Made by a program: the position numbers and the translations under genes. Source: Phytoseiulus persimilis (lineage: Eukaryota > Arthropoda > Arachnida > Mesostigmata > Phytoseiidae). Taken from it: a DNA stretch of 64,000 bases. The DNA lies in assembly GCA_037576195.1 (NCBI GenBank), contig CM075101.1:33728001-33792000 (forward strand). Reading direction: 5' to 3'. Positions 3,001 through 61,148 of the stretch are shown here, piece by piece; the first letter of the stretch is position 1, and each line of letters begins with the position of its first letter. The notes beneath the pieces were generated by a model. It was not told the DNA's origin and searched no databases. It worked only from the letters and a program-made list of their open reading frames with translations.

Positions 3001-4831
3001 GAATGATTGACGTTGACGGTTGGAGTTGCTCACAACGAGCTGTGGAGGATTTGTGAACACGATGGTGATAGCGATCGCAGAGGTGAGCAGCGAGAGTCGT
3101 ATTTTGATAGCGAACCGACAGCAACTATCAACCTGGAGTCGAGCTTGAGGGCGAGTACGCGAGCGGGCGTTGTTCGTTGGTACACGGCCACAAGCAACGA
3201 CCGGCGAGGTTGGTGGACACGTCGCCGTTGTCCGCCGCCGCCATAAAATGGAAGTGGCGGGCTTTGCTCAAGCACGCAACTCACGCCCAAGCGTCTGGAT
3301 TCAACTGTGCAGCGTCGACTTTGTTTGCTCTTTGTTTGCACGATCTTCGCACATATATCTGCGTTAGTCGAGCATTTTTTCCTCACTTTATATGAATCAC
3401 GCTCGGGAACGTTCGCCGCCGCCTGGTCTCGGCCATGCTGTCCGGACTCCTTCCGACAACTACCATATCCCATTCGACATTGTGTTCCGGAAGATGTCGG
3501 TCTCGTTCTGCTCTGGTGGGAGGCTCGTTGTCTGCCTGAGCTGGGCTGAACACGATAACAGGGAGGAAACGGCGGACAGACGAGGAGCGAAAATATACGC
3601 TTCGTGACAGATTGAAGGAGAATTAGGCCAATTATTATTGCCGAACCCGGGCGTCTTTCGGCGGAGGATTTCTCCTTGGATCCTCTCGTGGTGGGAACGA
3701 AGATGGGCCCCATATTTTAACGTTAATACAACTAGCTGCTCTTTCGACAGGCCAGAGCACGCTGAAGCAGAGCAGACGCGCTCGTTCCCGTGCGAGTCGG
3801 AGCCCGGGCCCGCCGGGCACACATCATCACCGACCAACATGGACTAGAGCGCCGTTAATCGGCTTATGAACCGACCATCCACATAGCCAGCTCGTACTCT
3901 GGGACAAACTCAGCGATGGAACAGCGAGCTAGCGAACGACCAGCGGTCGTAAGTGTGCGGCGGTCAACCGGGTTCTCGACGCCTCAGTTGTTCGTCGACT
4001 TCGATCTCCGATTTCACCATCGCCGCTCCCGCTCTCGCTTTCGGTGGCGTTCCGGCGATGGAGAGGGGGACTACTAGTTGTAAGCTAATATGAATAAGAA
4101 AAGAACAAATGCTTGCACTTGCTGCCACTGAGCTGAAAGTCAACGGCGCGTGCTCGAGTTCCGCTTTGTGTTCCCCGCAGCGAATAAAGCAACCGCAGCA
4201 GTTAGACGGAGGGAGCACAGATGGCCCTTGTTTGAAGCCACTTCGTCTTCTTGCTTCTCTCCCCTGTCCACTTTTTTCGTGTTCTTTTATTCACTCGTCT
4301 TGTCTCGGTACGCGTTCCCAGACGAACGTAAGACCGAGTGGATGCCGGAATGAGATTGGATTCTCCGAATTTGGAGCTATCTCGGGGCGCGCAGCGAGAG
4401 CGGCGGGGAGTGGCTGCTAGCTTCCGACCGTGAGCAGTGTGTTTCGCTTGAGGCTGGTCTCCCCGACCACCGGAATCCTCCATTTGACTCGGACTCAAAG
4501 TCCACTGGCGCTCTCAAAACACTAGTATGTGAGGATGGTGTCAGCATTGAAGCGACCAGACCGACGGGTCCCTTAGGAAGTCCGTAAATTGGGGGTTATG
4601 TTCCGGCGCCCCGCTGAGTGCGGTTTTCCCGGGATTCTTCGTTTACCCTGGATGCCCGGAATACTCCCGGAATCGCCGGAATTCCCAGGATCCCGAGCCC
4701 CGGACTCGTCAGCCAGAATCTGGGTTAACACAACTGTCGGTCCCGGGAAATCCGGCAGACCGACTTTGGTGCGCTGCTGGTCCAAATTGGAATGTTCCGT
4801 CACCGTTGTTGTCGGATATTCGTGTTCGCCA

Positions 4832-56436: not shown

Positions 56437-56442
56437 TTTATT
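56437..56442 (-). promoter_or_regulatory. Polyadenylation signal of the downstream dehydrogenase gene
   Basis: On the minus strand AATAAA occurs 63 bases after the stop codon of the downstream (divergent) dehydrogenase copy. Its presence supports the view that this copy is still a transcribed gene. Confidence 0.65.
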
Positions 56443-56505: not shown

Positions 56506-58101
56506 TCAACTCCAATCTCGGGCTCGATACAGCAATCTCCTTGTCTCCAGAACGAGTTGGTCGGAAGCTTCACGATCGACATCGTTCAGCGGTAGCTGGT
56601 GCAAGCAGTTAGAGAAGAAACTTCCACTTTTGATCTGCCCCACGGGATCAGTGCAAAGATATAGGAGATTGTAATCCCCCACTGTCGCATTCTGGAAGAT
56701 CAGGAATCGTTGTATTCCGCGGAGTGTATCTGAGCAGTACCATGCCGCGGGAGAGGACTGACAGCCCATTGGTCGTCCCCCGAAACTGTCTTTCGTCCCA
56801 GTTCTGAGCCCATCTCAACAGAATGCTGACCACAGCCTTGGATTTCTGATACATCCATTGTCCGTATTCAAGCTAGAACCCTCATCGGAACTGTCGGATC
56901 TTCGGAACGCCTCGCGATTAGAATCCCTCGAGGGCTTTCCGTTTTCAGCAGATATCAATGATCCGAGTGTGTCGATACCCTGTTCTAGGCAATAGTAAGG
57001 CAGCGCAGTAACTTCTGCCATGGAGTCGCGCTCAATGGGAAAAATCGACGCAGAGCATGTCGCACTCACAGATCCACAAAACAGCTCGACCCATCTTGAT
57101 GACCAATGTCCAACGACGCTTTTGCAGGACTCACGCAGGGAATAAGCCAGTCCGGGGTGGGAGAGGTTTATGGTCACACCTGGAGTATGGAGATCGAGAA
57201 TTTCGATTGCATGATCTCTTTCACAGAATGATGAAACTGTAACACAGTCGGGTGTGTGGATGCGTGCACGTCACCTGAATTCCTCAACTCCTTTGACAAG
57301 CTTCTGCTCCACATAACGAGTGCTAGAGTTGCATCGCAAACTACATTGCTCGATCCCGTACACAATCCTTTCACTTGATTCTCGTAATTCGCAACGTCCA
57401 TTGAACCGAACCCATGGTTGAAGAATCCTACATTAATGATCCGAGACGGCACCGATTTTCTCATCAACGGAAGTAGCGTATCGGTGAGCAAGAACGGTCC
57501 CAGGGAAATGGATTGATGAATTTCGTCGAATCCATCGATGGTTATGCATGATGGTCCCCCAGCTCTTCCGAAATTATTTATCAGTATGTCAAGCCTCGTT
57601 TGTTCCTCGAGAATTCTTCTGGCAAATGACCGAACTGAGTCTAGATCATAAAGATCCAGCTCTCGGACATCGACTCTCGTGTTGCCCTTGAGAATTCTCG
57701 CGAATTCCGTGACTCGTGGCGTACCGAGAATAACCGTCGCGCCTAATGTTGATAAATCCTGGGCTGCTCTTACACCGATCCCTATAAAAAGTATTCTTTG
57801 GGAATCGAGCGCATATGCCAAACATCACAGAAGTTCTATCGAAGCTCTTCTCATTATTCACCCCTCATCGAACGAGGCAATGGGTCTGGAACTCACCCGA
57901 ACCTTCGACATTTATGACAACAACCCGGCCGGTTAGATCCTGGGTTGACTTCCACCTCTGGGTAGCGAAGTACAAGTATAGTCGCGTGAAAACGGGAATC
58001 GCCACCAGCATCCTCAAAATGGTAAACGATATTCGGACAGCGATCGTCAGGACTAGGAGAAAAGAGAACTCTCTTGATTGAACCCCCATCTGGAAGATCA
58101 T
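56506..58101 (-). CDS. Catalytically degenerate short-chain dehydrogenase, retinol dehydrogenase 11-14 type (copy A)
   Basis: Four exons, 58101-57897, 57781-57275, 57179-57070 and 56691-56506, join through GT-AG introns of 115, 95 and 378 bp into an intact 335-residue protein. Residues about 11-45 are a hydrophobic membrane anchor, as in RDH11-14. The Rossmann fold follows: VVVINVEGSGIG (family: VTGxxxGIG), LDILINNFGRAGG, SRIINVGFF, HPGLA and a C-terminal KSGSFFSNC. Key residues are altered. In ungapped alignment with copy B the catalytic Ser, Tyr and Lys are Phe, Val and Thr; NNAG is NNFG; the TG of the cofactor motif is NV. Dehydrogenase activity is therefore unlikely, while the frame, splice sites, HPG motif and poly(A) signal are kept. 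This suggests a non-catalytic role. A start at the fifth codon (MGVQ) is an alternative. It lies 1.26 kb downstream of copy B on the same strand and arose by tandem duplication. Confidence 0.9.
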
Positions 58102-59362: not shown

Positions 59363-61148
59363 TCATTGTCTCTTCTTGTCCCGCAGCGCTCTACGGCTCA
59401 CTTCAAGAATTGTTCTGTTTTCCCCCTCGTCGTTGCCTTTCCACGTGGATTGCTTGGCACATTCTGCCCAATATTGTCCATTCTCTTCGCCTCCGGAGGG
59501 GTCCAAGCACAAGTGCAAGATCGTTTGTGCTCCTTCCTTGGCGCTCTGGAAAAAATCTTCGGTCGGAAGACGACCTCACAGAAGACACACTTGAAGTATC
59601 ACATTCTTCCGATGAATAATTGGAACAACATCATCTACTTACACGCCCGAAAACGAATAGAGACAGCCTCAAGAACATGTTCCAAAATGTGACCATACTG
59701 CTGGCGAAACTCGTCGAAACAGCCCCTGGGTGCAGCACGTTTATTGTTACGCCTGTGCCAAGAATAGATTGTATCAGTTACTTCGAACGAATGTCTGCCG
59801 GCTTTGAGCACTATCGGAATCAAGAGAAATCAGGTGGATGAGCATTGACCGGGAGACTTACCTGAGTTCCTCAGCTCTGCACCCATCGCCCTCGTCCACA
59901 TCAGCATGGCCAACTTCGTGTCGCTGTATCGTTGGACCGATGCTCTGAAGTTGCTCCTCAGCTCGGCTTCGAATGTTGACGGATTTATTTTTCCACCGAA
60001 GTAGGCTATAGATCCTGTGTTAACTATTCTCGAGGGCGCTGAGCTCTTCAGGAGCGGCAAAAGGAGGTCCGTCAGAAGAACAGGCCCCAGAAAATTGGAC
60101 TGGTAAATTTCTTCGAAACCATCGGCGGTGACTCTGAAGATGTCGCCGCTTGTGCCGGCATTGTTGATCAATATGTCGATTTTCTCCTCTTCTTTGAGAA
60201 TTTCGTTCGCAAAGGAGCGAACAGACGAAAGTTGACACATATCAAGCAGTTTGACGCTGACCTTCGCCGCAGGGTTCTCGTTTTTGAATTCATTGGCAAC
60301 CTCAATCGCTCTCGTGACGTTCCGACAAGCCAGTATCACCCTTGCTCCTCGTTTTAAGAGTTCTCGGCTGGCTTCTTTCCCGATGCCTGGGGATGGAAGT
60401 TGGTGGTTGACGAGGATCAGAATGAATCCCCAAAGTTCAAAATATTCGTGACGAATTTCGAGTCAACTTCTGTTCCCGACGGCGTTGTCCACTGTTCTTG
60501 TGAATCCGAACAAATGGCATGGAGCTTAGAAAAATTGCTCACATCTGTCGAACATTCGGTATTATAGAGCTCGTCCCGATGAGATTCCAACAGGAAAACC
60601 ATTGCTACAAAGGTTGTTAGGCACTGAATCATTTGTGCTGCGGGGACTGATCACAAAATGATGCTCGCAAGGTGGAATGCTCTCTATCCAGAATGTTTCC
60701 ACAACTGACTCTTGCAAGACATCCCGTTAGTGATAGCGCGAAATGTGTAATCCGGGAGAATCCACGACTGACGTGCGCAGCGGAAGGGGACTTTTGTACA
60801 ACATTCGGTTAACGATACTCGTAACAACGACTCTCACAGCGATGGAATTCAAAATCAGAAGTAATCAAAGTCAACATTCGCCAGTTTAGACTTGATAACA
60901 ACGGATTCAGGGATGATGAAGGAGGCTGCAAATGCCGGATCATCCGTTCGGAAGGTGCGGCTTTCGACGATTTCGCTGATCGCCGATAGCTTACCAGAGT
61001 TAGCCCCAGTCACGATCACGACTTTCCCGTCAAGGCGGTTCTTTGACTTGCATTTCCCAATCGTTAGAGCGACGTAAAGTTTCACCACCAGGATCAGCAC
61101 CACGGAGACTTTCAATGCACTCAGCACCAAATCATAGGCGCAATCCAT
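59363..61148 (-). CDS. Short-chain dehydrogenase/reductase, retinol dehydrogenase 11-14 type (copy B)
   Basis: Four exons, 61148-60995, 60386-59862, 59752-59643 and 59545-59363, join through GT-AG introns of 608, 109 and 97 bp into a 323-residue protein, a normal length for the family. The family reduces or oxidises retinoids and other lipophilic carbonyls with NADP(H) at the endoplasmic reticulum or mitochondrion. Residues about 7-31 form the membrane anchor. The active-site set is complete: VTGANSGIG (46-54), LACRN typical of NADP preference, DILINNAG, NTGS carrying the catalytic Ser, YSDTK with Tyr and Lys, HPGAV, and a C-terminal EGAQT..L...L.P segment. The start is the ATG at 61148, because the earlier in-frame codon is TTG. 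Introns are phase 1, 1 and 0 at the same places as in copy A, and exon 3 is 110 bp in both. The natural substrate cannot be told from sequence. Confidence 0.92.
60417..60632 (-). CDS. Small ORF with signal-peptide-like start inside intron 1 of copy B
   Basis: A 71-codon frame starts with ATG and a hydrophobic stretch (MIQCLTTFVAMVFLLES), then becomes polar with three further spread-out residues typical of secreted peptides (Cys27, Cys41 among them), and ends 31 bases before the intron's acceptor. It lies on the same strand as the host gene. It could be a nested secreted peptide, an alternative first exon, or chance. No splice donor or poly(A) signal of its own could be fixed. Confidence 0.2.
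   Translation of the reverse strand: MIQCLTTFVAMVFLLESHRDELYNTECSTDVSNFSKLHAICSDSQEQWTTPSGTEVDSKFVTNILNFGDSF

Follow-up and report, generated by a model that had tools for sequence, protein, structure and literature searches.

Copy A, one of two neighbouring short-chain dehydrogenase/reductase (SDR) genes of Phytoseiulus persimilis, probably codes for a retained SDR-fold pseudoenzyme, likely anchored in a membrane, that no longer acts as an oxidoreductase. The gene model is intact, the catalytic tetrad and 4 of the 12 other motif residues that were listed are gone, and the reading frame was kept in the meantime. We infer that the gene yields a protein which still adopts its fold. The window studied is the whole stretch of 64,000 nucleotides that was analysed (C1:33728001-33792000), which lies within a 181-Mb genome of 127 contigs, four of which are large at 54.7, 52.0, 38.9 and 28.1 Mb, and copy A was compared in it and beyond it with the relatives B to F.

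Gene model and replaced residues of copy A

Copy A occupies positions 58101-56506 of the window on the minus strand and was modelled as a four-exon SDR gene of 335 amino acids plus the stop. The features of copy A and of its neighbour copy B, whose residue numbering is used throughout, are as follows.

57897..58101, minus strand: exon 1 of copy A, with the hydrophobic N-terminal stretch and the first beta strand; INVEGSG against VTGANSG
57275..57781, minus strand: exon 2 of copy A, with Arg73Pro, Ala128Phe, Asn149Ile, Ser177Phe, Tyr205Val and Lys209Thr (B numbering)
57070..57179, minus strand: exon 3 of copy A, with the segment GVTINLSHPG, in which the PG motif is retained
56506..56691, minus strand: exon 4 of copy A, with the C-terminal part and the stop; GDYN where B to F have GAQT
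56437..56442, minus strand: AATAAA of copy A, starting 64 bases past the stop
59363..61148, minus strand: copy B, exons 61148-60995, 60386-59862, 59752-59643 and 59545-59363; 323 amino acids, catalytic and cofactor motifs present

When joined, the exons of copy A give a single open frame of 1008 bases, and the introns (115, 95 and 378 bases) have GT...AG at all six splice sites. The four open exons, six GT-AG sites and poly(A) signal described in the first-pass annotation are therefore all present. The best 19-residue mean hydropathy in exon 1 is 2.13, and this N-terminal stretch, which is common to A, B, C and D, is a probable membrane anchor. The frame 57174-57824, which contains exon 2, matches Pfam adh_short with 46.7 bits (cut-off 26.6), while among the best 25 NCBIfam matches of each copy no model reached its own cut-off for A or B. 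The PDB sequence search returned various SDRs and reductases (33 matches for A and the best 60 of 210 for B), with 3rd5 as the top match of both copies; RDH11-14 are not named among the 33 matches of A nor among the best 60 of 210 for B. Judging by motifs and anchor, the gene group of A, B, C and D is putatively similar to the RDH11-14 (SDR7C) retinol dehydrogenases.

The alignment of copy A with copy B places Phe at Ser177, Val at Tyr205 and Thr at Lys209; in both copies the Ser position is separated from the Tyr position by 27 residues. The loss of the catalytic triad that had been claimed is thus seen directly. The fourth residue of the N-S-Y-K tetrad is also gone, Asn149 being replaced by Ile. 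The claimed changes in the cofactor motifs were found as well: NV stands for TG, giving NVxxxGIG against the classical TGxxxGxG, and NNFG stands for NNAG. In addition, Arg73 of the ACRN motif has become Pro; the residues replaced outside the tetrad are mostly on the cofactor side. The tetrad, the Gly-rich loop, the Asp after beta3, NNxG and PG are motifs with established roles in SDRs. What remains in copy A is GSGIG, which includes the final two Gly of the Gly-rich loop, as well as the LDL Asp, HPG and, within NNxG, the two Asn and the Gly. The new residues in the pocket are Phe for Ser, Phe for Ala and a Cys beside the Tyr position. When counted over 16 functional columns, which were chosen from known SDR motifs after the alignment had been viewed, copy A retains 8 of 16, against 15 of 15 in each of B, C, D and E and 15 of 16 in F, with the relatives scored by leave-one-out.

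Relatives of copy A

Copy B lies upstream of copy A on the same strand, with the same four-exon plan and intron phases; all three of its introns are GT-AG, an AATAAA is found 207 bases past its stop, and it scores 90.3 bits with Pfam adh_short. C and D are two more four-exon relatives at C1:35.77-35.78 Mb (loci L023 and L022), and the exon borders and intron phases of A agree with those of B, C and D. These three genes share the exon plan and the clade of A but, unlike A, have Asn, Ser, Tyr, Lys, TGxxxGIG and NNAG all in place. C and D make up a second close pair within the four-exon group, with both active sites complete. The relatives E (L024, C2:16.32 Mb) and F (L026, C4:18.15 Mb) each consist of one open frame instead of four exons, 335 codons long in E and 345 in F.

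Over the whole protein, copy A is 35.6% identical to B, 33.9% to C and 35.7% to D, and over exon 2 the values are 44%, 37% and 42%. Trees of eight proteins grouped A with B, C and D (support 100/99 and 99); within this clade the position of A was open in one tree analysis, and in the other it fell outside B+C+D with a support of 95. The branch leading to A has a length of 2.25 against 0.40 to 0.51 for the paralogues B, C and D, or 1.47 against 0.35 to 0.45, which is 3 to 6 times theirs. With nearly the same identity to all three paralogues, A is no recent duplicate of the adjacent copy B.

A special link of A to copy B, as the first-pass annotation had proposed, found no support: identity to the three paralogues is similar, sisterhood with B is not resolved by the trees, and the residues exclusive to A and one paralogue number 15 with B, 13 with D and 5 with C. 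In helices D and E (segment names of A, B, C and D follow general SDR topology rather than a structure), A matches B at 29 of 45 positions and C and D at 21 of 45 each, and B matches C at 27 of 45. This match, together with the location, may hint at a tie of A to B in particular and is suggestive only.

A pattern search for relatives of A gave 17 matches in viral contigs and 93 in genome contigs, none of which encodes a relative. A TTAGG pattern of 20 bases was found at 7 scattered places, against 12 for its control, and a COX1 search gave no match. A piece of 96 bases on C4 (L033:1510-1605) is 95.8% identical to window positions 60145-60240, part of exon 2 of copy B; it is the sole match of the window to that locus, lies on another chromosome-size contig and is a fragment copy. 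Between positions 3033 and 59616 of the window, 20 of the 59 stop-to-stop frames of at least 130 amino acids were compared with Pfam, none of them matching at E 0.01, a survey in which spliced genes may have been missed.

Decay, selection and other explanations

A local example of decay is provided by a third SDR copy:

L018:767-1764 (C1:33792303-33793300, some 300 bases beyond the end of the window), plus strand: decayed third SDR copy with in-frame stops and gaps

Despite its broken frame, this copy keeps Asn, Ser, Tyr and Lys (YGDSK). Of 46 family-invariant columns it retains 30, including these four, whereas A retains 28 without them. The third copy shows what decay looks like at this locus, and it is the opposite of A, with the frame broken and the catalytic residues retained.

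Neutral evolution was simulated with substitutions only, in 5000 runs from each of the four active genes B, C, D and E. The loss of all eight residues with a frame free of stops was observed in none of the 20,000 runs, and the loss of the four catalytic residues with such a frame in 5 (B 2, C 1, D 2, E 0). Starting from B, the frame lasted for a median of 0.018 substitutions per site, or 0.0069 when indels were added at one tenth of substitutions, while the eight residues were gone at a median of 1.19, or 1.33 with indels; the state of A was reached in 0 of 1000 runs in each setting. Only 5% of the simulated runs still had an intact frame at 0.085 substitutions per site when indels were left out, or at 0.032 when they were included. 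A codon model of 271 columns and five genes rejects neutrality of the whole A branch on three topologies (2 delta lnL of 12.86, 12.99 and 12.31); in this model synonymous sites are saturated and some branch lengths are at their bound, and because of the saturation only the rejection of neutrality is used from the branch dN/dS of A. Agreement between A and B is 0.338 at third codon positions, against 0.514 at first and 0.549 at second positions. Because the neutral runs never reached the state of A with an open frame, the frame of A was kept by selection while the active site went, and the claim that A is not a case of simple decay is upheld by the simulations and by the codon model alike. This argument covers the past of A; a death of the gene within roughly the last 0.08 substitutions per site stays compatible with it.

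The loss in copy A is broad. It affects 34 of the 85 columns that are invariant in B to E, with 8 of 16 functional columns lost against 26 of 69 others (p = 0.41). Similar results were obtained with B, C and D as the reference (8 of 16 against 50 of 121, p = 0.59) and with B to F (8 of 15 against 16 of 44, p = 0.36). A loss targeted at the active site was therefore set aside, the losses not being clearly concentrated there. With a broader selection of pocket columns, made later, the result was p = 0.08, or 0.039 in the core only, and the chance of finding the whole tetrad among 34 lost of 85 columns is 0.023 (0.061 for the triad); these values are not relied on.

From beta3 to beta5, A kept 32 of 43 columns against 47 of 94 elsewhere (p = 0.009), and 21 of 29 against 30 of 56 when E was added (p = 0.11); the same split in the controls B, C and D gave p = 1.0, 0.71 and 0.14. 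The apparent sparing of this region is lost once the choice of region is allowed for, since as good a run anywhere was found in 74 and 76 of 300 permutations. In beta3 and helix D, the mean identity of A to B, C and D is as high as the identity that these three have to one another; the ratio of the two is 0.79 to 0.91 in beta4, helix E and beta5 and 0.24 to 0.60 in helix F and the cofactor half, made up of beta1, beta2 and helix C. B to F share 85 hydrophobic columns, and A is hydrophobic at 70 of them (background in A 0.43). Measured alike for all genes, the hydrophobic core is kept to 0.81 in A against B to E and to 0.88 to 1.0 in B, C, D and E by leave-one-out. The AlphaFold models of exon 2 had a mean pLDDT of 49.6 for A and 51.6 for the control B, both too poor to use.

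It is very improbable that a wrong gene model or a misassembly makes an active gene look dead. The junctions of A are predicted from sequence, which leaves room for such an error, but the exon borders agree with those of B, C and D, and a genome search with copy A found one identical place, with the next best at 44%. The single open exon 2 holds the positions of Arg, Ala, Asn, Ser, Tyr and Lys, which make up six of the eight that are replaced, so splicing cannot restore these six; those of Thr and Gly are in exon 1. At least 11 base changes are required in the eight replaced codons, so sequencing error is unlikely as the cause. The first-pass annotation had allowed for another exon choice that restores Ser, Tyr and Lys; this was checked and is excluded by the open exon 2 and by a tblastn search with the A and B proteins on the 64-kb window (to E 10), which gave weak matches only and no further SDR exon. 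Compensating frameshifts near the Ser-Tyr stretch were also considered, and reading the three frames of the strand gave no restoration in register; a Tyr-Val-Glu-Gln-Lys in another frame of A is out of register and was taken as chance.

A harder case to dismiss, though still an unlikely one, is that A was for long a divergent or non-catalytic SDR whose function was lost very recently, so that it is an early pseudogene with the frame still unbroken. The very long A branch and the broad loss of conserved columns fit such a history, as do the decayed copy just past the window end and the third-position GC of A, which is 0.521, lower than in any of the other five genes in the comparison and near the window GC of 0.525. 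Nonetheless, the frame, the six splice sites and the poly(A) signal are intact, and the neutral phase must be short for the reason given by the simulated frame lifetimes. Neofunctionalisation, with A as a ligand binder or with the pocket now used for a different enzymatic reaction, is rather improbable: the new pocket residues, with the hydrophobic core largely kept, speak for it, but no new constellation of catalytic residues was recognised. The retained pseudoenzyme, which we prefer to these alternatives, has points against it as well: the losses are broad, the core is kept less well than in B to E, and the long A branch fits relaxed constraint too.

Possible function and comparison with known SDRs

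HSDL1 is an SDR of a different family in which the Tyr is replaced. It was reportedly described by Meier et al. in 2009, in human and zebrafish, as an enzymatically inactive SDR conserved among species. HSDL1 and A would both be SDRs of the inactive type, and for HSDL1 the conservation is reported to extend from human to zebrafish.

The nearest documented mechanism for A may be that of DHRS3 and RDH10. DHRS3 is a membrane-associated SDR that activates RDH10 in a hetero-oligomer, the retinoid oxidoreductase complex, and its inactive mutant Y188A still binds and activates RDH10 (PMC7022914). Wild-type DHRS3 is catalytic and uses NADPH when bound, whereas the tetrad of A is gone. Other SDR members, MAT2B, HSCARG/NMRAL1 and NmrA, act or are thought to act by protein contacts, and they are described as NAD(P) sensors with a Rossmann fold, MAT2B having kept its catalytic triad (PMC3793261). 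They differ from A, which lacks the tetrad and 4 of 12 other motif residues. Inactive SDRs and NAD(P)-sensing regulators with the SDR fold are therefore already known, and A is most likely a further SDR pseudoenzyme. No SDR pseudoenzyme with the make-up of A is named in the titles and abstract openings searched, a search that mostly left subscription papers outside.

The first-pass annotation had proposed a retained pseudoenzyme, for example a partner of copy B. The loss of the catalytic residues with the frame kept stands behind the first part of this proposal, while the partnership with B is a guess, as A resembles C and D about as much as B. If the rest of the explanation is accepted, A would act on an active SDR that it adjoins in the membrane, as DHRS3 does with RDH10, a mechanism that is conceivable but less likely than not; the partner could be B, C, D or another SDR. 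The holding of a ligand would be the next most likely mechanism. A more specific version, for which we see a small chance, is that A serves as a cofactor-free SDR-fold subunit that would regulate a catalytic SDR in the membrane, either B or a relative, by way of the retained surface of helices D and E. If true, this would be an SDR regulator with no need of catalysis or cofactor, unlike the NAD(P)-sensing ones.

Pseudoenzymes make up 8% of the genes for enzyme-like proteins in Drosophila according to a 2025 survey (PMC12869072). They are common in many gene families, and one more is no surprise. If the reading of A as a retained pseudoenzyme holds, it would be an example from nature of an intact gene whose SDR product has given up its entire catalytic tetrad and some of its cofactor site and that stands beside paralogues of the active type and a true relic, and it would make possible a direct test of what such an SDR fold is kept for.
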